Origin: a bacterium
GTDB taxonomy: Bacteria; Actinomycetota; Acidimicrobiia; Acidimicrobiales; CATQHL01
NCBI GenBank assembly: GCA_026706565.1
Contig: JAPOYM010000042.1
Coordinates: 1 to 34,930, forward strand
DNA: 34,930 nt
Direction: 5' to 3'
In this document: in pieces, positions 3,558 to 34,440 of the stretch
How the letters are laid out: every line of letters starts with the position of its first letter
How positions within the stretch are numbered: the first letter of the stretch is position 1
Translations under genes and position numbers: made by a program
Notes under the pieces: model-generated
The model's database searches: none
Told to the model about the DNA's origin: nothing
Seen by the model: only the letters and a program-made list of their open reading frames with translations

Positions 3558-5258
3558 TCAGCTGCCGACGGTTAGGACTGAGCTCCCTAGCCAGCGGTCC
3601 TCGGGGGGCTGGGCGGGGAGGTAGCGGGCGGGGGGCAGGAGGCGGTTGCTCCAAGTGGCGCCGTCGCGCTCCTGGAGGGCGAACTCCACCCGTCCGCTGG
3701 CCCGCAGGCGGGCGATGATGCGCACCTGGGTGTCGCTCACCGTCATGGCGCTGCTGCCGAGCCACTGATCCACCCTGGCGTTGCGGGGCAGCAGCCTCGC
3801 CGCGGGCAGGATGCGATCCGACCACCCGCCGCCGGTGCCGCGGGCCTGCAGGGCGAACTCCACCCGGTCGTCGCTGGACCGCTTGCGCACCACGATGCGC
3901 ACCTCCGCTTCGCCGCTGGTGGGGATGAGGTCGGTGCCGCCGGAGGAGGCCTGCGTGGTGGGCGGCGGGGCGGGCGGCGGCAGCGCCTGCGTAGTCGTGG
4001 TCGTGGCGACCGCGGCGGCGCAGTCGACGATGAACTCGAAGATGAAGTCGTCGGCGCCGCCGGCCCGCCAAGTGCGGGTCTGGGTGGTGCCGGCGGCCAC
4101 GCCGCAGTTGGAGGGCAGGTCGCTGATGGTGGCGGTGACCGTGCAGCCTTCGACGTTGTTGGACGTGAGGCTGCGGGCCAAGGCGAGGTACATGCCGCCC
4201 GGGCCGAAGAGGGTGAGTCCGTGCTCTTCGTCGTGAACGGTGAAACGCCCTTCGTTGAGGGGAGCGGCGAACCCTCCGCCCGGACGCCTGACGATGGTGG
4301 CCGAACTCGGGGCGCCGATGGCCGGCGGGAGAGTGCCGGAGGCCACGCCCCCGCAGGAACGGCTGATCTCGTAGGAGGCGGTGCCCTGGTTGTTGGAGTT
4401 GCGGACGTTCTGCACGATTGCGATGCGCCCGTAGGGGAGTTGCACCAGCTTCCCGAGCTCGACGGTCATGGCACCGTCGTTGCCTGCGCTGCTGGTGTCG
4501 AAGGTGAGCCCGCCGGAGTCGGTGATCCTGAACGGGGCGGGCGCGTTCTGGATCGTCACGTCGAACTTGCAGGAGCCGTTGCTGGGAATGCCGGGGAACG
4601 CCTGCTTCACGGTGCCGTCGTCGCCGCCTTGGAGGGTGAGCACGAAGACCTTGTTGCAGCCGCGCCCGCTGCGGGTGGCGCTGTTGGGCCCCACGCGGAT
4701 GCGGAACGTGGAGGCCTCCACGGCGCGCTCGGCCCGGGCCTCCAAGGCGGAGTCGTAGGACGACCGGGGCAGTGCTTCGATGGCGTCCTCGGGCTCGATG
4801 TGGAACGTCACGTTGATGGAGGCGTCGCAGGCGCCGTTCGTCTTGCGTTGCGCCTGAACGGCAGTGGCGCCGCCGCGGGCGCTGTCGTTGGTCATCACCT
4901 CGTCGGCCCAGTTGCTGCCGTCCCAGCTGACCTCGGCCTCGCAGATGCTGCCCGGTTGGCTGGATTCGTTGCGGGCGGTGGCTGTGATGGTGTAGGTGCA
5001 GTTCAGGTTCAGGATCTGGGCGGTGTTCCCCTTCGGATCCAGCCAGCCGGACTCCCAGTCGCCGTGACCCGTCGACTCGCCGCAGCCTCCGAAGGAGTCG
5101 ACGAAGACCTTCACCTCCCAGTCGGAGTTGCTGGCCTCCGCGTTGGCGAACGTGAACCCGGTGACCTGAGCCGACGCGGACGATCCGACGGCCACCAGCG
5201 TGGTCGCCGTCAAGGCCACCGCCAGCAGGGACAGTCGCAGGCGTTTGAAGTTCAACAC
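3558..5258 (-). CDS. secreted Cys-containing protein of unknown function (paralog 1 of 4) with duplicated C-terminal module
   Basis: Signal peptide MLNFKRLRLSLLAVALTATTLVAVGSSASAQ; shares a Cys-patterned domain (IVQN...YEISRSCGG...LNEGRFTV...C..C...FEFIVDC) with the three following genes; C-terminal DQWLGSSAMTV / DRWLGSSVLTV repeat. Confidence 0.85.
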   Translation of the reverse strand: MLNFKRLRLSLLAVALTATTLVAVGSSASAQVTGFTFANAEASNSDWEVKVFVDSFGGCGESTGHGDWESGWLDPKGNTAQILNLNCTYTITATARNESSQPGSICEAEVSWDGSNWADEVMTNDSARGGATAVQAQRKTNGACDASINVTFHIEPEDAIEALPRSSYDSALEARAERAVEASTFRIRVGPNSATRSGRGCNKVFVLTLQGGDDGTVKQAFPGIPSNGSCKFDVTIQNAPAPFRITDSGGLTFDTSSAGNDGAMTVELGKLVQLPYGRIAIVQNVRNSNNQGTASYEISRSCGGVASGTLPPAIGAPSSATIVRRPGGGFAAPLNEGRFTVHDEEHGLTLFGPGGMYLALARSLTSNNVEGCTVTATISDLPSNCGVAAGTTQTRTWRAGGADDFIFEFIVDCAAAVATTTTTQALPPPAPPPTTQASSGGTDLIPTSGEAEVRIVVRKRSSDDRVEFALQARGTGGGWSDRILPAARLLPRNARVDQWLGSSAMTVSDTQVRIIARLRASGRVEFALQERDGATWSNRLLPPARYLPAQPPEDRWLGSSVLTVGS

Positions 5259-5411
5259 GGCGCGCCCTCCTTTCCGACGCCGGGCAGCGGACCCCGACTA
5301 GGTCCCGTGCCGAGTGCCGGCTGTTGAGATTCCGGCGAAGGTCAAGGTTAGTAGCCTTCGGTGGCCGACGGGCGGATAGGCGCCGCCCGCGGCTCGGCGG
5401 CGGGCATCCGC

Positions 5412-6839
5412 TCAGCCCGCGAACATGTCCATGACCGGTCCGTCCGCAACCGGGCCCGCGTCCTGCGCCGCCGGGGCGGGCGGCGGCGGGGCGGAGGGCG
5501 GCGGCGGGGCGGAGGGCGAGAGGGGCGCGGCGTCCTGCGGCGGCGGGGCGGCCGGCGAGAGAGGCGCGGCGTCCACCGGCGGCGCCTCCTGGGCCTCGGC
5601 GGGCTGGGTGCAAGTGATGTCGAAGGTGAAGTCGAAAGCTGTCAGCGGTTCGGCGACGGTCCAGACGAGCGAGCGGATGGCGCCGCCGGCCACGCTGCAA
5701 CGCTCCGGCACGCCGAGGACGGTGGCGATGACAGAGCACCCCACGAGGGTGTCGGCCGCCGCTCGGGAAGCTGTCGCGGCGTAGGTGTAGACAGGGCCGA
5801 AGTTGGGCGCTGCGGGCGAATGCACCGTGAAGCGGCCCTCGCTGAGCGGCACCGTGGCGGACGACGGGGGCGGGCCGTCGTGCGAGAGGCCACCGCACTC
5901 GCGCGCGACTGCGTAGGAGACCTCGCCGCGGTTCTGCGAGCCGGCGACGTTCTGCACGATGGATATGCGGGCGTGCGGCAGGGCGGCCAGCGAGGTGAGG
6001 TCGACCAGGATGGTGCCGCCGGTGTCCTCGAAACGAACGGCGCGGCCCTCCCGGGCGGCGAAGGGAGGGGCCGCCCCCAAGACGGTGGCCCGGCGCAGGC
6101 AGGCGTCTAGGACCTGCCCCACGTCCACCGACGCGGGCGCCCCGTCGCCCGCCACGGTGATGAGGTACGTGTGCTCGCAGCCGACGGGCACTCGGGCGTC
6201 GGGCGCGTAGTCCGGCTCGATGAGCACTTCGAAGTCGACCAGCGGCGCGGCGGCGCGGGCCAGGGCCGCCAGTTCGGCGTTGGCGGAGGCGCCCGGAAGG
6301 TCGGCCACCACCGTGGCGGCGTCGATCTTGAAGCGGGTCTCGGAGACGCCGCGGCACCCCGAGCCGGGCGCCTGGCGTATCGAGAGCCTGTGCTGCCCGT
6401 CGGGCCTGGTGACGCTGAGCAGGGGGAGGCTCACGTAGTCGGAGTCGCCGGGGTCGGCGCCCCACGCTGCCTGCGGGGTCACGGTGCAGGCGTCCCGCGA
6501 GGCGTCGCGCAGGGTCGCGAAGATCTCGTAGACGCACTCCTGGAAGCCGAACTGCGCCGCGGCCTCGTCTCCTGCCTCTATCCAGTGGCTGGTGTACGTC
6601 GTGACCCCTTCTTCGGAGGCACAGCGATTGAGAGTGCGGGCGGTCACCCGGACCTGCCACCGCTCGTCGGGGCCGGTCGAGCGTTCGGCGTTGTCGAGAG
6701 TGTTGCGGAATATGAGCGGCGTGGTGGGCGGCGGATCGTCGTCGTCGCTCTGCGCCGACACGGGCGACAGGCTGAGCGCCGCGGCGAGCGAAAGCGCCGC
6801 GGCGAGCACTAGCCCTCGGCCCCCTCGAAGGTGTGACAC
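5412..6839 (-). CDS. secreted Cys-containing protein of unknown function (paralog 2 of 4), Pro-rich tail
   Basis: Signal peptide; ISIVQNVAGSQNRGEVSYAVARECGG...LSEGRFTVHS...FDFTFDITC then Pro/Ala-rich linker and C-terminal GPVMDMFAG. Confidence 0.85.
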   Translation of the reverse strand: MSHLRGGRGLVLAAALSLAAALSLSPVSAQSDDDDPPPTTPLIFRNTLDNAERSTGPDERWQVRVTARTLNRCASEEGVTTYTSHWIEAGDEAAAQFGFQECVYEIFATLRDASRDACTVTPQAAWGADPGDSDYVSLPLLSVTRPDGQHRLSIRQAPGSGCRGVSETRFKIDAATVVADLPGASANAELAALARAAAPLVDFEVLIEPDYAPDARVPVGCEHTYLITVAGDGAPASVDVGQVLDACLRRATVLGAAPPFAAREGRAVRFEDTGGTILVDLTSLAALPHARISIVQNVAGSQNRGEVSYAVARECGGLSHDGPPPSSATVPLSEGRFTVHSPAAPNFGPVYTYAATASRAAADTLVGCSVIATVLGVPERCSVAGGAIRSLVWTVAEPLTAFDFTFDITCTQPAEAQEAPPVDAAPLSPAAPPPQDAAPLSPSAPPPPSAPPPPAPAAQDAGPVADGPVMDMFAG

Positions 6840-6955
6840 GCTCAGTCTCCCTCAACCTCGGCATTCAACGGGTGTACCGGCCGATCCCCTCCTCGCTCCA
6901 TCGTAGCGACATCGCCGCCGACGGTGGCGGGATTCTCCGCCTTCGGACCGGGCCG

Positions 6956-8035
6956 TCAGCCCGTGGGGGCGTCGAGGGGAGGGCCGACCTCGGGCGGCGG
7001 CTCGGGGGGCGGTGGCGGAGCGGGCGCAGGCGGCGGAGCAGGCGGCGGCAACTCGGGCGGCGGAGGCGGGACAGGCGGAGGCGCAGGCGCAGGCTGGGGC
7101 GGAGGCGGCGGAGGCGGCGGAGGCGGCGGAGGCGGCGGAGGTGGCGGGGCTTGGGCGGGCTGGGGCTCGCTGCAGACGACAAGCACCTCGAAGATCACCC
7201 GGCCGTCTGCGTCGGCGTCGGTGAGCAGGTTCTTCGAGTCGCCGCTCGAGTAGCCGAACACGCAGTGGGCAGGAACTTCCGACGCTAGGAGCTTCACCCC
7301 GCACGGCTCTCCCCGACCGTTGACGGCAGGTGTGCTGTAGCCGTCGGCAGTGGGCCCGATAGCGGCGGAGACGTTGTAGGTGCCCTCCCGGAGTTCCACG
7401 GTGGACCAACGCTCGAAGGTTCTCCCCGCGGGCACCGCTTCAAGCTGGCCGGGGAGTTCGCCCAACGCGCACTCCCCGATCTCGAGCCGGTAGCCGATTC
7501 TGCCCCTGTGGGAGTCGCCGGCGACGGTCTGCACGAGGTGTACGGTGCGGACGGCCACCCGCACCCGCAGCGTGACGTAAGAGTTCCGGCCCCGCACGTC
7601 CCGCGCCCTGTTGGCGCCGCCCGGGGCGTCGAACCCGGCGGGCGGCACCACCTCGACGTTGTAGCGGCAGTTAGTGGCGGTCGTCCTGCCGGCCACCGTC
7701 GCGGTGTCGCCCGCTACTCGCAGCACCGCGCGGATGCGGCCCCCGACCGATTCGGTGGTGGCGCTCGCGGACCTGCACTCGGCGTGCGACCCCGGCACTG
7801 GGGCGGCGACCACAGTGAAGCGGGTGTTGGCGACGGCGCTGGCGCTGCGAAGATCGGAGGTTGTGCCGGTGTCGTCCTTGTAGCCGGTGTCGACGACGGT
7901 CACGGTGATGGTGCCCGACGGCTCGGCGTCTTGGGCGACCGCCGGCACCGAGGTGAGGGCCGCCGCGGCGGCGAGAAGGCAGAATGCGGCGGCCGTCGCC
8001 GACCCGGTTCGCCGCGGCGGTAGCCGTTCGATCAA
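6956..8035 (-). CDS. secreted protein of unknown function (paralog 3 of 4), long polyproline tail
   Basis: Signal peptide; TRFTVVAAPVPGSHAECRS...NCRYNVEVVPPAGFDAPGGANRARDV; TVELREGTYNV; FEVLVVC; uninterrupted Pro run; C-terminal GPPLDAPTG. Confidence 0.85.
   Translation of the reverse strand: MIERLPPRRTGSATAAAFCLLAAAAALTSVPAVAQDAEPSGTITVTVVDTGYKDDTGTTSDLRSASAVANTRFTVVAAPVPGSHAECRSASATTESVGGRIRAVLRVAGDTATVAGRTTATNCRYNVEVVPPAGFDAPGGANRARDVRGRNSYVTLRVRVAVRTVHLVQTVAGDSHRGRIGYRLEIGECALGELPGQLEAVPAGRTFERWSTVELREGTYNVSAAIGPTADGYSTPAVNGRGEPCGVKLLASEVPAHCVFGYSSGDSKNLLTDADADGRVIFEVLVVCSEPQPAQAPPPPPPPPPPPPPPPPPQPAPAPPPVPPPPPELPPPAPPPAPAPPPPPEPPPEVGPPLDAPTG
7090..7146 (-). repeat. 9-bp GGCGGCGGA tandem repeat encoding a polyproline run
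   Basis: ggcggaggcggcggaggcggcggaggcggcggaggcggcggagg on + strand. Confidence 0.85.
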
Positions 8036-8098
8036 GGCACCGATCGTAGCACTGCCGCGCCGGGTTTCCGTTGCGGGCGGCGCCTGGGGGCAAAACGG

Positions 8099-8128
8099 CG
8101 AGGGGGCCGGCCGCGGCCGGCCCCCTCG
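8099..8128 (-). terminator. rho-independent terminator: perfect 30-nt palindrome followed by TTTT on the minus strand
   Basis: cgagggggccggccgcggccggccccctcg; adjacent + strand caaaacgg gives CCGTTTTG on the minus strand, downstream of the 8151-9659 gene. Confidence 0.85.
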
Positions 8129-8150
8129 GGGTTAGGAATCGTGGGGTGGA

Positions 8151-9659
8151 TCAGCCGGTGGGCATGTCGACCATCGGGCCGTTTGCGGGTGCAGCAGGCT
8201 CGGGCGCCGGCTCGGGCATCGGCTCTTCGGTCTCGAGGCTGCCGGTGTCGTCGCCGCCGGTCTCGCCCATGTCGCCGCCGCCGTTCATGTCGCCGCCGCC
8301 GTTCATGTCGCCGTTGTCGGCGGGCTCGGGCATCGGGTCGGGCTCGGGCATCGGGTCGGGCTCGGGCATCGGGTCGGGCTCGGGCGCAACGTCGTTGCAG
8401 GTGATGCTCATGGGCACGAGGGCATGGCCGTCGCCGCCGTTGGCCTGACCCGCGGCGTCCTCAACGAGGTTGATGGACACGACGTTGGTGGGGTTGTCCG
8501 CATGGCAGTTGTCGGGCAACTCCATGACCTTGGCAGCGACAGTGCAGGCGACCGCCTTTTCGTCCAAGGCCTTCCTCGCCTGGCTGGTCCGGAGTGCCTC
8601 CACACCGCGCGACACGTCGTAGTGGCCTTCACGCAGCTCCACCGAGATGGTGCTGATGATGCCTCCGACTTGCCTGCCGCCGAGCGCGGGGGGCAGGCCC
8701 ACCGAGCAGGAGCGGTCGTGGAACTCGTAGACGGCGAAGGCACCACCGGAGGGACCGGTCACGCGCTGGGTCAGGTGAACATTCGGCTCGGCGATCTTGA
8801 CCATCAGGTCGATGGTGCTGTCGGCTCCCGTTCCGGGGACATCCGCCTTCTTGTTGCCACCGCCCGGAGCCGCGAAGCCGCCGGGCAGGCCCACCAAGAC
8901 GTCGTAGTGGCAGTTGACGGCGACGTTGCTGCCCTCGACGATGGCGTTGTTGCCGACCACGTTCAACTTGGCAACGGTCACGCCGCCGGAACGCTCGGTC
9001 TCGGCGGAGACCTCTTCGCACTGATCCTTCGATTTCGCAACCGGCGTGGCGGTGACGGTGAAGGTGGTCTCGCTGATCGCCCCGTTGGTGTCATCGTCGC
9101 CATCGTTCCCGGGCGTGGTCACCGTATCGTCACTGGTGTCGTTGGGAGTGTCGTTGTCGTCAATGACCTCCTCCACCCAGTTCATGGCCCGCACGTTGAC
9201 GGTGATCTGCCCGCCAGCGACACAGCCAGAGTTGACAACCGACAACGACATCGTCGCTGGCGTGTCGTCAGCATTAGGCGCAGGCAAGCCTCCGACCGCG
9301 CAGCTCTGGCTGCGCACCACGGATACGAACGAAGCCGACCACTCGTAGGTGCAGGCATCGTTCACCGTGACAACGATGGTCCCCGTTGATCCCGTCACAG
9401 CCTCGACCGCGACATCGTCGGCATCCGGGTCACCGTTGCTGACGGCCACGGTGCTGGTCTTCGAACCGGACGCACCGGAGGTGTCGGCACCCGGATCGCA
9501 GCCTCCCACCGTGTCCCAGCTCACCGTGTAGGTGCCTGCGGCGCCGGCGGTGGTGATCGTGATCGCCTTGACGGTGGCAGAGGCAGGCCCGGAGGCCAAG
9601 GCCAGTACCGCCGACATCAGACCGGCGACGCTGAGGACGCCGACCAGAATCTTTCTCAT
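8151..9659 (-). CDS. secreted Cys-containing protein of unknown function (paralog 4 of 4), acidic/Pro repeat tail
   Basis: Signal peptide MRKILVGVLSVAGLMSAVLALASGPASA; TTFTVTATPVAKSKDQCEE...NCHYDVLVGLPGGFAAPGGGNKKADV; SVELREGHYDV; (EPDPMP)n; (NGGGDM)n; C-terminal GPMVDMPTG. Confidence 0.87.
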   Translation of the reverse strand: MRKILVGVLSVAGLMSAVLALASGPASATVKAITITTAGAAGTYTVSWDTVGGCDPGADTSGASGSKTSTVAVSNGDPDADDVAVEAVTGSTGTIVVTVNDACTYEWSASFVSVVRSQSCAVGGLPAPNADDTPATMSLSVVNSGCVAGGQITVNVRAMNWVEEVIDDNDTPNDTSDDTVTTPGNDGDDDTNGAISETTFTVTATPVAKSKDQCEEVSAETERSGGVTVAKLNVVGNNAIVEGSNVAVNCHYDVLVGLPGGFAAPGGGNKKADVPGTGADSTIDLMVKIAEPNVHLTQRVTGPSGGAFAVYEFHDRSCSVGLPPALGGRQVGGIISTISVELREGHYDVSRGVEALRTSQARKALDEKAVACTVAAKVMELPDNCHADNPTNVVSINLVEDAAGQANGGDGHALVPMSITCNDVAPEPDPMPEPDPMPEPDPMPEPADNGDMNGGGDMNGGGDMGETGGDDTGSLETEEPMPEPAPEPAAPANGPMVDMPTG

Positions 9660-11016: not shown

Positions 11017-12174
11017 TCAACCCCGGCGGCCCCTGAGCCGCTTGGAGGCGCCGGGGCCAGCCGGCAGGCGGGGGGCCGCGCCGTGCTCCTGCAGGTGGCG
11101 GCGGACGGCCGCTGTGACCGCATCGGACGTCGACACCCCCAAGAACGCAGCCAGACGCTCGATCATCTCGAAGGTGGCGCCGTCGAGGCGGATCTCCTCG
11201 ACCCGGAGAACAGCGCCGCCACGTTCCTCGCTAGAGGAAGCGGCAGGAACCACCGTCAGCGGTGCGGAGGCGGCAGGGTGGTCGGCGGCAGGGTGGTCGG
11301 CGGCCGCGGGGTGGTCGGCGGCGGGGACGGCGGCGATGGCAACCGGGGCGGACGGCTGCTCGCCCCCGTCGACGGGCTCGGCGGTCGGGGAGTCAGCGGC
11401 CGCCGGCGCGTTGGGGTGCGCCGCCACCGCCTCACGAACCATCTCATTGGGGTCGCTCGCCAGCACGCCCAGAGCGTCCGGCGGCGTGTCGTGGTGCTCA
11501 GCGACGGCCAAGCGGACGTACGTGTCGTCGTCGCGGGCCATCCGAGCGAGACAGAGGGGCGGCGTGGCCGCGTGGTGGGCGACGGCGCGCCGAACGTCCA
11601 CGACGGAGTGGCCGTACAAGGCCCGCAACGCCTCCGACGGCGACCGAGGGTTCTGTGCCACAGCCACCGCGATCTCCGCGCCCTTGCTCTTCGCGAGGAC
11701 CGCCAGCAAGTCGGCGGGACACGAACTGTTGGCGGCGACCTGAGACAGGCGGCTGCTCGGGAACCCCTTCGACCAGTCCTTGACGAAACGCCGCAGCACC
11801 GTCTCGGGGGTCTTGGGGTTGCCGGCCACCGCGTACAGCACGCTGGTGTCACCGTCGGCGGCGAGAACCTCCAGAACGTCCGGCGGCGCGGCCTCGTTGC
11901 GAGCCAGGGTTCGACGGATCTCCGCGTCGACGTCGCCGGCGAGCCGCAGCAACAGCTCCCGGTACGAGCAATGGCGCGCCAGAGTGCGCCGCACCTCGAC
12001 GTCGGGGTCGCGCACCAACACCCGCAGAGCCTCCAAGGGGGCGTTGCTGTTCCCTGCGACTCTCGCACGTATGGTGGGATCGTCGGCTGCCACGTAGGGA
12101 AGGAACTCCGAAGCGTCGCCCTTCAGCGCCGCGGCCTGCATCCAGTCGAGGGGTTCGTCGCTGTCTCGGATCAT
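11017..12174 (-). CDS. leucine-rich-repeat-variant (LRV)-like solenoid protein with C-terminal ribbon-helix-helix-like segment
   Basis: Repeated (A/V)AGNSNAPLEALRVLVRDPDVEVRRTLARH-type units; C-terminus VEEIRLDGATFEMIERLAAFLGVSTSDAVTAAVRRHLQEHG. Start among TTG/GTG/ATG 12180/12177/12174 uncertain. Confidence 0.7.
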   Translation of the reverse strand: MIRDSDEPLDWMQAAALKGDASEFLPYVAADDPTIRARVAGNSNAPLEALRVLVRDPDVEVRRTLARHCSYRELLLRLAGDVDAEIRRTLARNEAAPPDVLEVLAADGDTSVLYAVAGNPKTPETVLRRFVKDWSKGFPSSRLSQVAANSSCPADLLAVLAKSKGAEIAVAVAQNPRSPSEALRALYGHSVVDVRRAVAHHAATPPLCLARMARDDDTYVRLAVAEHHDTPPDALGVLASDPNEMVREAVAAHPNAPAAADSPTAEPVDGGEQPSAPVAIAAVPAADHPAAADHPAADHPAASAPLTVVPAASSSEERGGAVLRVEEIRLDGATFEMIERLAAFLGVSTSDAVTAAVRRHLQEHGAAPRLPAGPGASKRLRGRRG

Positions 12175-12343: not shown

Positions 12344-13294
12344 TCAGCCGGCGGTGCCGGTGAACAGGGCGAAGTAGATGGGCGTCATGACCGCCGCCAG
12401 CGCCGCCAAGATCACGTAGGTCTGGCGGGCGATGCCAAGCTTCATGTCGCCGCGCAGAATGTGCATTTCGCCGCGCAGCTTGGCGAGGCCCGCCTCAATC
12501 TTGGCCCCCAACTCGACGCGGACGGCATCGGTCTTGGCCTCGAGGACCGCCACGTCGGACTTGATGACCCCCACGTCCGACTTGAGGACCCCCACATCCG
12601 ACTTGAGGACCCCCACATCCGACTTGAGGACCCCCACATCCGACTTGAGGACCCCCACATCCGACTTGAGGACCCCCACATCCGACTTGAGGACCCCCAC
12701 ATCCGACTTGAGGACCCCCACATCGGCCTCGAGTGCCCCCACGTCGGACTTGATGACCGCCACATCCGACTTGAGGACCCCCACATCGGCCTCGAGTGCC
12801 CCCACGTCGGACTTGATGACCGCCACATCCGACTTGAGGACCCCCACATCGGCCTCGAGTGCCCCCACGTCGGACTTGATGACCGCCACATCCGACTTGA
12901 GGACCCCCACATCGGCCTCGAGTGCCCCCACGTCGGACTTGATGACCGCCACATCCGACTTGAGGACCCCCACATCGGCCTCGAGTGCCCCCACGTCGGA
13001 CTTGATGACCGCCACATCCGACTTGAGGACCCCCACATCGGCCTCGAGTGCCCCCACGTCGGACTTGATGACCGCCACATCCGACTTGAGGACCCCCACA
13101 TCCGACTTGATGACCGCCACGTCGGACTTGAGGGGCACCACGTCGGACTTGAGGACCCCCACGTCGGACTTGGTGGCGAGTTCGTGCCAGCTAACGGGCG
13201 GAAGACTCTCCATGAGCGTCGTCGCCGGTCCTTCCTCCAGTACTTCGATTAGTTTTTCCCGCAACTCTAAGCGTCGCGACTCTGTCGATTCCAC
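12344..13294 (-). CDS. tandem-repeat coiled-coil protein with C-terminal transmembrane helix
   Basis: GTG start at 13294 with GAGGAGG RBS; VESTESRRLELREKLIEVLEEG... then heptads VGVLKSD/VAVIKSD/VGALEAD; C-terminal TYVILAALAAVMTPIYFALF. Confidence 0.8.
   Translation of the reverse strand: MESTESRRLELREKLIEVLEEGPATTLMESLPPVSWHELATKSDVGVLKSDVVPLKSDVAVIKSDVGVLKSDVAVIKSDVGALEADVGVLKSDVAVIKSDVGALEADVGVLKSDVAVIKSDVGALEADVGVLKSDVAVIKSDVGALEADVGVLKSDVAVIKSDVGALEADVGVLKSDVAVIKSDVGALEADVGVLKSDVGVLKSDVGVLKSDVGVLKSDVGVLKSDVGVLKSDVGVLKSDVGVIKSDVAVLEAKTDAVRVELGAKIEAGLAKLRGEMHILRGDMKLGIARQTYVILAALAAVMTPIYFALFTGTAG
12550..13175 (-). repeat. 21-bp heptad-encoding tandem repeats, including a 6 x 63-bp higher-order array
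   Basis: Six near-identical 63-bp units (VGVLKSD-VAVIKSD-VGALEAD) spaced 63 bp by the ctcgagtgcccc marker, followed by 7 VGVLKSD units and one VGVIKSD. Confidence 0.95.
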
Positions 13295-13372
13295 CGTCGG
13301 CTCCTCCTCGGTGTTCCTTGTCCTTGGGTCCGTGACCAAGAGGGGGGCCGAGGCTCCCGAATGCTTCGAGTG

Positions 13373-13400
13373 AGTATAACAGTCCCACCCGCAAGTGCAA
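13373..13400 (-). promoter_or_regulatory. putative sigma-70-like promoter of the coiled-coil gene
   Basis: Minus strand TTGCAC-N16-TATACT, about 80 nt upstream of GTG 13294. Confidence 0.6.
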
Positions 13401-13440
13401 CCCCACCCCGGGCCCCCAGCGGGGCGGGACGGGACGGGGT
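13400..13440 (-). terminator. putative hairpin terminator downstream of groES-groEL
   Basis: accccaccccg / cggggtggggt 11-bp inverted repeat with pairable GC-rich interior. Confidence 0.5.
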
Positions 13441-13452
13441 GGGGTACGGGGG

Positions 13453-15846: not shown

Positions 15847-16481
15847 ACGCGGTCCGCGGCGCCATCGTCGTCATCGTCGCCCTCGTGATCGGCGTCGTGG
15901 TTCTCGCACGCGGGCTCGACGGGCCCGACACCGCAGAGGGGCCGGTTCAGACCACCGACACGACGCAGCCAGCGGCGAGCGCCCCGCCCGCGGGCGAGGC
16001 CCCGCCTCCCGGACCCGTCGCCCCGCCTCCCGGGCCGGTGGCCCCGCCTCCCGGACCCGTCGCCCCGCCTCCCGGGCCGGTGGCCCCGCCTCCGGCAGCC
16101 GCAGAGGTCGAAGTCCCGCCCTCGGCGCCCGAGGACATGTTCGCCGACCCCCAGCAGACGCCGCCGACCCACTACCGCGGCGACGTGCGGGTGCTGGTGG
16201 CCAACGGCACTTCGGTCTGCGGCGCGGCCGGGCGGATCGCCACATCGCTGAGCGCCCAAGGGTTCAACGTGCTGCCCGCCGCCAACGCCGACAACCCCGC
16301 CGAGGCGTCGGCCGTGTACTACGTGGAGGGGTACGGCGCCGACGCGGGCGTGGTGGCCTCGCTGCTCCAGGTGGACTCCTCGCGGGTGCTGGCCATGCCC
16401 TCGTCTCCGCCGACGGCGCCCGGAGACGCCCACGTGGTGCTCCACATCGGCGCAGACGACTTGGCCCAGCCGAACTGCTGA
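15843..16481 (+). CDS. membrane-anchored LytR C-terminal-domain-like protein
   Basis: N-terminal TM AIVVIVALVIGVVVLA, (PPPGPVA)n linker, C-terminal RVLVANGTSVCGAAGRIATSLSAQGFNVLPA...AVYYVEGYGADAGVVASLL. Confidence 0.8.
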   Translation: MNAVRGAIVVIVALVIGVVVLARGLDGPDTAEGPVQTTDTTQPAASAPPAGEAPPPGPVAPPPGPVAPPPGPVAPPPGPVAPPPAAAEVEVPPSAPEDMFADPQQTPPTHYRGDVRVLVANGTSVCGAAGRIATSLSAQGFNVLPAANADNPAEASAVYYVEGYGADAGVVASLLQVDSSRVLAMPSSPPTAPGDAHVVLHIGADDLAQPNC

Positions 16482-27547: not shown

Positions 27548-29387
27548 CGGCGCGGGCCGCGGGGTGGCCGGCGACGGCGCCGACACCGCCGCGGCAGGCG
27601 CCGCGCCAGCCCTGCCGACCGGGGCCGGTGCTGCTGCTCGAACCGGAGCCGCCGCCGGAGCCGGTACCGCTGAGGCCGGTGCTGCTGCTCGAACCGGAGC
27701 CGCGAGAGCCCGTGCCGTCTGGCTGAGCGGCGACCTCGAAGCCCGGGCCCGGGCCGCGGCGGCCGCCCACCGCACGCCGGCCGCGGTGGAGATCTACGAC
27801 ACCACGCTGCGGGACGGCAGCCAACTCGAGGGCATCTCGCTGACCGTCGAGGACAAGCTGCGCATCGCCCGGGAGCTGGACCGCCTCGGCGTGCACTACA
27901 TCGAGGGCGGCTGGCCGGGCGCCAACCCCAAGGACGACGAGTTCTTCGCCCGGGCCGCCGAGGAGCTGCGGTTGGAGACGGCCCGCCTGGCAGCGTTCGG
28001 CTCCACCCGGCGGGTGGGGGGCCGCTGCGACCGCGACGCCGTGCTGGCGAACCTGCTGGCGGCCGGCACCCGGACGGTGTGCATCGTGGGCAAGTGCTGG
28101 GACTACCACGTCAGCGAGGCGCTGCGCACCAGCCTGGACGAGGGCATCGCCATGGCGGCGGAGTCGGTGGCGTACCTGGTCGGGGCGGGCCGGCGGGTGT
28201 TCTTCGACGCCGAGGGGGCCTTCGACGGCTACAAGCACAACCCGGACTACTCGCTGGCGGTGCTGGCGGCGGTGGCCGAGGCCGGGGCGGAGCGGCTGGT
28301 GCTGTGCGACACCAACGGGGGCTCGCTGCCGCACGAGGTGTACGCCATCGTGGCGGAGATCGTGGACGCCCTCGGCGCCCCGGTCGGGGTGCACCTGCAC
28401 AACGACACCGGCTGCGGGGTGGCCAACGCGCTGGCCGGCGTGCGGGCCGGGGCCACCCAGGTGCAGGGCACGATCAACGGCTACGGCGAGCGCACCGGCA
28501 ACTGCGACCTGGTGCCGATCATCGCCAACCTGAGCCTGAAGATGGGCGTGGCGACGCTGCCGCCGGAGCGGCTGGAGCTGCTGACGTCGGTGTCCCGGCG
28601 GGTGGCGGAGATGGTCAACTGGGTGCCGGACCCCCAGCAGCCCTACGTCGGCACCTCGGCGTTCGCCCACAAGGCCGGGCTGCACGCCAGCGCCCTGGCC
28701 CGGCGCGCCGACGCCTACGAGCACATCGACCCGGTAGCGGTGGGCAACGGCACCCGGTTCGTGGTCTCGGAGATGGCGGGGCGCTCGTCGATAGAGCTGA
28801 AAGCTGAAGAGTTGGGCATCGAGATGGACGCCGCCACCGTGGCCGAGCTGATCGAGACCCTCAAGCGGCTGGAGTACGAGGGGTACCAGTTCGAGGTGGC
28901 CGACGCCTCCCTGGAGCTGTGGATGCGGGCCGCGGCGGGCTGGGAGCAGCCCTGGTTCCGCATCGAGTCGTTCCGAGTGGAGGTGGGGCGCCACATGCGG
29001 CCGGCCGGCGAGCCCCCGCCCGAGGATGCCGCCGCGTTCGCCCAGTGCGAGGCCACCATCAAGCTGTGGGTGGGCGACCAGCGCCGCATGACCGTAGGCG
29101 AGGGCAACGGACCGGTACACGCCCTGCACAACGCCCTGCTGTCGGCGGTCGGCGACCACTATCCCGAGATCGCCCGAATCACCCTCACCGACTACAAGGT
29201 GCGTGTCCTGGACACGGCCGCGGGCACCGCCGCGGTCACCAGGGTGCTGATCGACTCCAGCGACGGCGCCCGCACCTGGACCACCATCGGCGTCTCGGAG
29301 AACATCGTGGAGGCCTCCTGGGAGGCCCTGTCGGACTCCATCGTCTGGGGCCTGCTGCACAGCGGCACCCGAGCACCCGCCGCCTGA
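27534..29387 (+). CDS. cimA: citramalate synthase CimA-like, with Ala/Gly/Pro-rich N-terminal extension
   Basis: VEIYDTTLRDGSQLEGISLTVEDKLRIARELDRLGVHYIEGGWPGANPKDDEFF...VGVHLHNDTGCGVANALAGVRAGATQVQGTINGYGERTGN; overlaps ilvE by 14 nt. Confidence 0.93.
   Translation: MSTSSGAGRGVAGDGADTAAAGAAPALPTGAGAAARTGAAAGAGTAEAGAAARTGAARARAVWLSGDLEARARAAAAAHRTPAAVEIYDTTLRDGSQLEGISLTVEDKLRIARELDRLGVHYIEGGWPGANPKDDEFFARAAEELRLETARLAAFGSTRRVGGRCDRDAVLANLLAAGTRTVCIVGKCWDYHVSEALRTSLDEGIAMAAESVAYLVGAGRRVFFDAEGAFDGYKHNPDYSLAVLAAVAEAGAERLVLCDTNGGSLPHEVYAIVAEIVDALGAPVGVHLHNDTGCGVANALAGVRAGATQVQGTINGYGERTGNCDLVPIIANLSLKMGVATLPPERLELLTSVSRRVAEMVNWVPDPQQPYVGTSAFAHKAGLHASALARRADAYEHIDPVAVGNGTRFVVSEMAGRSSIELKAEELGIEMDAATVAELIETLKRLEYEGYQFEVADASLELWMRAAAGWEQPWFRIESFRVEVGRHMRPAGEPPPEDAAAFAQCEATIKLWVGDQRRMTVGEGNGPVHALHNALLSAVGDHYPEIARITLTDYKVRVLDTAAGTAAVTRVLIDSSDGARTWTTIGVSENIVEASWEALSDSIVWGLLHSGTRAPAA
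27623..27703 (+). repeat. 30-bp direct duplication, 51-bp period, in the cimA N-terminal extension
   Basis: ggccggtgctgctgctcgaaccggagccgc at 27623-27652 and 27674-27703. Confidence 0.9.
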
Positions 29388-32562: not shown

Positions 32563-34440
32563 CTAACCCTCGGCGGGACAGTCCACGTCGCCCGACGGCA
32601 CGACGAGGTCGACTAGGTACTCGTCCGCGACCGCGGTTACGCAGCGGCTCAGGCCGTAGCTGGTGTGGTCGTTTCCGTCGTAGCTGACGAGCACCCCGGA
32701 GGCGAGTTGGCGGGACACCGACACCGCCCACTCGTAGGGGGTGGCGTTGTCGCCCCGGTTGCCGACGACCAGGATCGGCGGCGCATCCGGGGCAGCGATG
32801 GGGCCGACAGGCAGCGTGCCGGCAACCACCGGCCAGTGCTCACAAGGCAGGCCCGACACCGCCGAGGCTCGCCCGAAATCGCCGGCCACCGCTACCAGCG
32901 CCTCGGTGAAGGCGTCCAACTCTGCACGGTCGGCCGCGCCGCCGTCGGTGCAGACGACGCTGACGAACGCGCCGAGGTCGCCGAGATCGGTGTAGAACTC
33001 GCCCAGCAGGCCGAGCAGCGTCCCGTCGCCGTTCACCGCGGCGGCGAGCCCGTCGAAGAATTCCGGCCAGAGCTCCGAACTGTATGAGGCCATCACCGCC
33101 GCCAGGATCGCACGGGCAGGCCCGAGCACGACCTGCTCGGCGGAGTCCCGCATCGGCTCAGCGTCAATGCGGACCAGCAGCCGGTCGTAAGTCTCCTCGG
33201 GGTCGTCGGTCACCGCGCAGCTCCGATCGCTGCGGCACCAGGCGAACATCGCCTCGATGGCGCGGGTGAAGCCGACCATCTGCCCCACCGCCAGCTCGGC
33301 GCCGCCAAGCGACGGGTCGACCACGCCGTCGAGGACGGCCGCCCGGAGTCGCTCGCCGAACATGTCGGCGTAGAGGAGGCCCAGCCGCGTGCCGTAGCTG
33401 AACCCGAGGAAGCTGATCGTCTCGGTGCCCAGCGCCCGGCGGATGGCCTCCATGTCGCGCACCGTGTCCATGGTGCCGATGTGGCCGACCGCGGCGCCGA
33501 GGTTGGCGACGCACGCCTCGGCGAGGGTGCGCGCCGCGGCATCGAGCTCCGCCTGCTCAGCGGCCGAGTCCGGCGCGGGGTCCACCAGATGGAAGTGCCG
33601 GGCCTCGTCTCGGCACCCGGAAGGGACACTGCCGCCGACGCCTCGAGGATCCCAGCCGACCACATCGAAGCGCCCCAGCAACTCATTCGACAGCCCGGCC
33701 CCGAAGTCCAGGAAGCCGTCCATGCCTCCGCCGGGGCCGCCCGGATTGACCAGCAGGTAGCCGATCCGCAGGGCGGGGTCGCGGGCGGGAACCATGCCGA
33801 CAGCCAACTCCACCGCTGCGCCGCGGGGATCGTCGTGATCGAGGGGCACCGTCACGGTGCCGCACAGGTAATCCCGCTCGCAGTCGGCGAACTGCAGCAT
33901 CACCGGCACATCCGGCCGCTCGCCGACGGGCGCCGGCACCGCGTCCTGCACTTCGTCATCGCGGGCCGGCTCGTGCGGCGGCGCGGCCTCGGGCGGTTCA
34001 GGCGGCGCCGCGGGCTCAGGCAACTCGGGCGGCAAGGGCTCGGGGGGCTCAGGCGGCGCCGCGGGCTCAGGCAACTCGGACGGCAAGGGCTCGGGGGGCT
34101 CAGGCGGCGCCGCAGGCTCGGGGGGTATAGAAGGCGGCTGTGGCGGCGGACCGGCCGGCACACCTGCGGCGGCGGGCGCCACCGATGGCCCGTGTTCGTC
34201 CGGCGCGGCAGGTTCGACCGCTTCGCCGCCCCCCTCGGCCATCCCGGCGGGCGGAAGTCCAGGCTCCGGCGCGCTCGGCAGCTCCTCGCCTGACGACGGC
34301 TCGGGCGCCTCGACGGGCACCCCCGCAGCAGGCTCGCGACCCGCGGGTCCGCCGCCTCCGGCACCGCCGCCGCACGCCGCCGCGACGAGCATCACCGCCA
34401 CGAGCGCGGCGACCATCCTACCCAACCCACCGCCGAGCAC
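32563..34440 (-). CDS. secreted lipoprotein alpha/beta hydrolase (TAP-like, proteinase/tripeptidyl aminopeptidase family) with Pro-rich N-terminal linker
   Basis: Lipobox LVAAAC; YLLVNPGGPGGGMDGF; ISFLGFSYGTRLGLLYADMFGERLRAAVLDGVVDPS; PILVVGNRGDNATPYEWA; SYDGNDHTSYG. Confidence 0.92.
   Translation of the reverse strand: MLGGGLGRMVAALVAVMLVAAACGGGAGGGGPAGREPAAGVPVEAPEPSSGEELPSAPEPGLPPAGMAEGGGEAVEPAAPDEHGPSVAPAAAGVPAGPPPQPPSIPPEPAAPPEPPEPLPSELPEPAAPPEPPEPLPPELPEPAAPPEPPEAAPPHEPARDDEVQDAVPAPVGERPDVPVMLQFADCERDYLCGTVTVPLDHDDPRGAAVELAVGMVPARDPALRIGYLLVNPGGPGGGMDGFLDFGAGLSNELLGRFDVVGWDPRGVGGSVPSGCRDEARHFHLVDPAPDSAAEQAELDAAARTLAEACVANLGAAVGHIGTMDTVRDMEAIRRALGTETISFLGFSYGTRLGLLYADMFGERLRAAVLDGVVDPSLGGAELAVGQMVGFTRAIEAMFAWCRSDRSCAVTDDPEETYDRLLVRIDAEPMRDSAEQVVLGPARAILAAVMASYSSELWPEFFDGLAAAVNGDGTLLGLLGEFYTDLGDLGAFVSVVCTDGGAADRAELDAFTEALVAVAGDFGRASAVSGLPCEHWPVVAGTLPVGPIAAPDAPPILVVGNRGDNATPYEWAVSVSRQLASGVLVSYDGNDHTSYGLSRCVTAVADEYLVDLVVPSGDVDCPAEG
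34010..34115 (-). repeat. 51-bp in-frame repeat (PEPAAPPEPPEPLPSEL)n in the lipoprotein hydrolase linker
   Basis: ggcggcgccgcgggctcaggcaactcgg...ggcaagggctcggggggctca repeated; protein PEPAAPPEPPEPLPSELPEPAAPPEPPEPLPPELPEPAAPPEPPE. Confidence 0.85.

Follow-up and report, generated by a model that had tools for sequence, protein, structure and literature searches.

The described proteins closest in architecture to the one considered here are those of the DUF1640/CCDC90-like group (PF07798; MCUR1, CCDC90B, yeast Put6 and Put7, and prokaryotic members), in which a head is joined via an ATK beta-layer neck to a stalk that ends in a C-terminal transmembrane (TM) helix. Hartmann et al. (2016; PMC4786415) described the motif of the beta-layer, [aliphatic]-A-T-K-[polar]-[DE]; after the beta-layer, the heptad register begins at position e. 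The alpha/beta coiled coils of DUF3782/Tcar0761 (PMC4786415) also contain the ATK motif and have tandem repeats inside the coiled coil. Another relevant system is Braun's lipoprotein, Lpp, a heptad coiled coil in which the length of the rod can be changed by whole heptads.

The window studied here, which is the whole stretch of 34,930 nucleotides that was analysed and comes from an uncultured actinobacterium, contains on its minus strand a gene for a 316-aa stalk protein that runs from a GTG at 13294 to a stop at 12344-12346, with a ribosome-binding site (RBS), GGAGGAG, 6-7 nt 5' of the GTG. The protein begins VESTESRRLELREK and ends FALFTGTAG. Its features are as follows:

13373..13378, minus strand: putative -10 element TATACT (TATGAT or TATGGT in genus orthologues)
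12344..13294, minus strand: coding sequence of the tail-anchored coiled-coil stalk protein (GTG start, at which the orthologue starts align, with RBS)
13181..13294, minus strand: conserved N-terminal head, residues 1-38 (two short helices, signature TLMESLPPVSW)
13163..13180, minus strand: neck LATKSD, residues 39-44, with the beta-layer motif
12533..13162, minus strand: stalk of 30 uninterrupted heptads in a/d register, residues 45-254
12722..13099, minus strand: six identical 63-bp units (VGVLKSD VAVIKSD VGALEAD)
12575..12721, minus strand: seven 21-bp VGVLKSD units (six identical, the last differing by GAT to GAC)
12359..12415, minus strand: C-terminal TM anchor VILAALAAVMTPIYFALFT, residues 294-312 (Kyte-Doolittle 19-residue maximum 2.16)

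The protein resembles those of DUF1640 in its build: LATKSD stands directly before heptad 1, and the coiled-coil stalk is followed by one C-terminal TM helix. Moreover, the neck rule places K42 at e, S43 at f, D44 at g and V45 at a, which is the register of the thirty heptads. The stalk is, however, much longer here and its heptads are near-perfect, and many relatives use 11-residue units. We do not file the protein under DUF1640, because it gave no match to PF07798 at E <= 1 and did not reach the Pfam gathering score of 33.5 bits; formal membership is not established. Two relatives tested singly scored 29.1 and 17.4 bits, again below this cut-off, and matches at E <= 0.01 were obtained for 8 of 30 relatives (best, 6.9e-9). 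The head sequence TLMExLPPVxW lies outside the single-relative matches (residues 45-132 and 61-154). The best match of the family profile to a solved structure, at the neck and stalk, is 6h9l, and a Foldseek search of the PDB returned nothing significant for the fold of the stalk protein.

In DUF3782/Tcar0761, the repeat is the nine-residue motif itself, whereas the window protein has the motif once and its repeats are plain heptads. The Lpp profile (PF04728) does match the repeats (E 3.6e-17, 62.9 bits), but the window protein has neither a lipobox signal peptide nor a C-terminal lysine, and, unlike Lpp, it carries a head and is anchored by a TM helix; homology to Lpp was rejected, the match being one of periodicity. 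Matches to apolipoprotein, S-layer, M-protein-like and similar profiles likewise have periodicity in common with the protein and nothing more.

The first-pass annotation of this DNA had recognised the repeat but missed the conserved head and neck before it. Yet it is these 44 residues, and not the repeat, that identify the protein. Using a query made of the head, neck and anchor minus most of the repeats, relatives were found in the genus and the order, and the signature that resulted is TLMExLPPVxWxxLATKxD, of which 9-12 positions do not vary when 8-34 relatives are aligned. In the alignments of 30-34 relatives, R8, L27, M28, L31, P32, P33, W36 and A40 are invariant, and T41 and D44 in the neck are nearly so. 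The family is defined here by LMExLPPVxWxxLATKxD in the head together with a C-terminal TM helix, and the window protein has both. When public genomes were scanned, 102 relatives were confirmed, and almost all of those listed come from metagenome-assembled genomes (MAGs) of Acidimicrobiia and other Actinomycetota; a phage origin was rejected, as no relative was confirmed in viral contigs. Of 240 genomes of good quality from the class, 65 have at least one member and some have up to 8, and members occur in 31 of 291 genomes sampled across the phylum. The window protein belongs, then, to a multicopy actinobacterial, mostly Acidimicrobiia, family, hitherto unannotated, that now has a recognisable architecture and signature.

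Several loci in this collection have features of their own. At L005/L038 (G042:C8) and at L059, three to four family copies are crowded into about 6 kb; their leaders and heads are nearly the same, their stalks differ and one copy is truncated, which reads as local duplication or gene conversion. Three entries titled Bifidobacterium breve (L103, L104 and L106) share the locus of freshwater Ilumatobacteraceae MAGs (L098), and their labels look wrong. A contig binned as Terriglobia (L050, VXMF01000042.1) carries a gene closely orthologous to that of G007, with 84% identity apart from a 14-aa gap, and is probably a misbinned actinobacterial contig.

The repeat array had been placed at 12550-13175 from a first reading, which was about right. 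Read 5' to 3' along the gene, it consists of three divergent heptads, which differ from the later units in codons or residues, then the six 63-bp units, the seven 21-bp units, VGVIKSD and VAVLEAK. The 63-bp units, previously described as near-identical, in fact match in all 378 bases, and the Tandem Repeats Finder score of the array is 1010. To separate DNA identity from protein repetition, 1000 synonymous versions of the stalk gene were generated, with codons weighted by their use in 15 genes of the window. At a 63-bp lag, the gene itself shows an identity of 0.944, whereas the recodings average 0.80 and do not exceed 0.861, and the longest exact repeat at this shift is 343 bp as against at most 50 bp. 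Since the recodings fall short of the observed identity, the array has been homogenised at the DNA level, beyond chance or codon bias, in agreement with the recent expansion or homogenisation first proposed. A uniform centre with diverged edges is the expected trace of slippage or unequal exchange, and we read the window gene as an extreme case in its family, expanded and homogenised recently. The open reading frames on the opposite strand and in other frames across the array were set aside; their openness follows from a repeat length that is divisible by 3.

At the protein level, the array is an exact heptad coiled coil, as had been suggested: position a is Val in 30/30 heptads; d is taken by Leu in 22 and Ile in 8, e by Lys in 23 and Glu in 7, and g is Asp in 29. 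Counting against the coiled coil is Gly, a weak helix former, at b in 21 of the 30 heptads. AlphaFold2 (AF2), given one chain of the window protein with 29 relatives, predicted helices at 5-19 and 21-29, a break, and then a single helix at 42-315, with a pLDDT that is lowest at residues 39-41 and rises to 98 in the stalk. The break in this single-chain model is compatible with a beta-layer neck, and a 121-aa genus orthologue has the same predicted plan. The stalk is probably a trimer. Taking 0.1485 nm per residue, the rod would be about 31 nm long over the heptads alone and 37 nm as far as the membrane.

The membrane anchor that had been read from the sequence holds for the family at large, a C-terminal TM helix being present in 141 of 144 distinct members. 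In these 141, the mean number of K/R is 2.6 before the TM helix and 0.33 after it, and in the window protein, too, the positive charges lie N-terminal to the sole TM helix, which is followed by a tail of only 4 residues. Neither a signal peptide, LPXTG nor an outer-membrane anchor was found in the window protein. These charges, the short tail and the missing signal peptide argue for a head and stalk that are cytoplasmic.

The first-pass annotation had also held that gain or loss of units would alter the length of the rod in frame, and comparison of relatives bears this out. Total length in the family ranges from 78 to 317 aa (median 128), with the window protein the longest and the next at 240, and an identical unit number was not seen at the level of species or paralogues. 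In other members, units of 33 bp (11 residues) are commoner than those of 21 bp. A minimum spanning tree that joins close relatives (gaps aside, 80% identity or more) contains 26 indels, and 19 of these are multiples of 7 or 11 residues (7, six times; 11, six times; 14, 22 and 28, twice each; and 33); the other seven are 2, 4, 4, 15, 29, 32 and 36. This excess has a binomial p of about 5e-8 under a simple uniform null in which related events are pooled. Among individual cases, the C179 paralogues, from the same genome as the window, are 98% identical with the same leader and head and are 14 aa apart, the L122 paralogues in one 3.0-Mb contig are 99% identical outside a gap of 28 aa, and freshwater loci that share a syntenic position (groES-tsaB) differ in stalk length by 7, 11, 22, 33 or 55 residues. 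Unit-wise change of length is a habit of the family, of which the window gene is the extreme. The family is, in effect, a natural series in which head and anchor are kept and whole structural units are added to or lost from the stalk, and this makes the role of coiled-coil length directly testable.

The explanation that we favour, with moderate confidence, is that of a tail-anchored head-neck-stalk-anchor protein in which the stalk is a spacer with a length that drifts by in-frame units. It builds on a repeat, a family, an anchor and unit-sized indels that were computed, and joins to them an oligomeric state, a topology, a spacer role and a mutational mechanism that we infer. The head of about 38 residues would be joined via the beta-layer-type neck to a parallel coiled coil, and the 30 heptads and a linker would run into the one TM helix that anchors the protein, so that the spacer would hold the head about 31-37 nm off the membrane. 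Slippage or unequal recombination would add or remove units of 21 bp, 63 bp or, in relatives, 33 bp in frame, and those changes that preserve helical phase would be tolerated, letting the stalk drift while head and anchor are conserved. Judging from the sequences of relatives of the window's species, stalk length looks tolerated more than finely tuned. As to the head, one lead by analogy may come from MCUR1, a eukaryotic DUF1640 protein that has been described as scaffolding a membrane complex (PMC7519068).

An important question is whether the array, though genuine, has the copy number that the contig gives it; that this number is a product of assembly, collapsed or inflated, is unlikely but is the likeliest of the alternatives. 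The source assembly has 187 contigs and is 75.6% complete, several relatives are on short-read NODE contigs, and within the array a 127-mer can occur as many as 5 times and a 251-mer as many as 3. As an exact repeat of 343 bp is beyond ordinary short reads, the count of 30 heptads is provisional, and the unit number is not reliable at face value if the assembly came from short reads. Against an artefact, the contig crosses the array with unique flanks and an intact frame, the edge units have diverged in the usual way, and unit-sized differences in length also occur in single-contig megabase assemblies, such as that of L122.

A molecular ruler or spacer had been offered as one hypothesis at the outset, and of the two it is the spacer that fits better. 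A true ruler, in which a selected stalk length fixes the distance from the membrane to the target of the head, would suit rigid heptads without interruption, and there is a precedent in Lpp, where a coiled coil longer by 14 or 21 residues makes the E. coli periplasm 3-4 nm wider and blocks Rcs signalling (PMC5736177). However, coiled coils that set a width, such as the length-selected proteins of the synaptonemal complex, show conserved length and few coil indels (PMC8598163). In the present family, members with 97-100% identity outside the gap are 11 to 33 residues apart in length, within a total range of 78-317 aa, and the spacer is preferred because a ruler should conserve length. Nor, to our knowledge, does a typical actinobacterium of such a kind have a second membrane, without which there is nothing for the stalk to measure to. 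We regard the ruler as improbable.

It is just as doubtful that the gene is a contingency locus, with a stalk length that switches within the population and a variability that is itself selected. Homogenised units and in-frame steps do make frequent changes of length plausible, and cells of the same species would then vary in unit number, and so in the reach and partners of the head, which we also think improbable; if true, it would make the window gene the extreme of a fast in-frame length process. However, in-frame units cannot switch the gene off, and the period is a multiple of 3 in nearly all of the other tandem arrays in the window as well, so that it is simpler to assume a general tendency to in-frame minisatellites. 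Finally, a surface stalk or adhesin with its head outside, like the trimeric autotransporter adhesins, in which beta-layer necks and trimeric stalks are known (PMC4786415), or M protein, is very improbable for a protein without signal peptide, outer-membrane anchor or LPXTG and with positive charges on the N-terminal side of its only TM helix.

With the tolerant spacer as the preferred reading, there remains the region upstream of the gene. Of the promoter previously described as good, TTGCAC-N16-TATACT, the TATACT hexamer is conserved in genus orthologues, but the TTGCAC (13395-13400) is not, and a consensus promoter scan reported no site upstream of the stalk gene. A conserved leader of ~72 nt follows the putative -10. 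This leader (CTGTTATgATC ... CTCTTGGTCtyGGACC; 13290-13385) is shared by the G002, G003, G004 and G007 orthologues, and the proteins behind it are only about 40-59% identical; it may be a regulatory leader. Covariation in the leader RNA is weak, with 2 of 24 pairs covarying among five sequences.

Between groEL and the stalk gene, there is an inverted repeat without a T run (ACCCCACCCC/GGGGTGGGGT; 13400-13446), which may separate the two transcripts. A functional link to groESL was rejected: among the genomes examined, the stalk gene comes after groEL in this one only, three genus relatives with a groEL1 92-95% conserved have no relative of the stalk gene downstream (flanks of 124 bp to about 1.5 kb), and the freshwater relatives sit on the groES side, opposite to the groEL side occupied in the window. 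No conserved partner gene of the family was found outside local synteny.

Elsewhere in the window, tandem arrays lie at 1634-1704, 5478-5584, 6993-7147, 8250-8385, 11264-11335, 15980-16093, 27618-27702 and 33962-34122, mostly within coding genes, and the genome seems prone to in-frame minisatellites. Four tandem genes at 3558-9659 (minus strand) encode proteins that begin with a signal-peptide-like stretch and have C-terminal tails rich in proline or in repeats, and relatives of the last of them (8151-9659) lie near the stalk gene in G002, G003 and G007.
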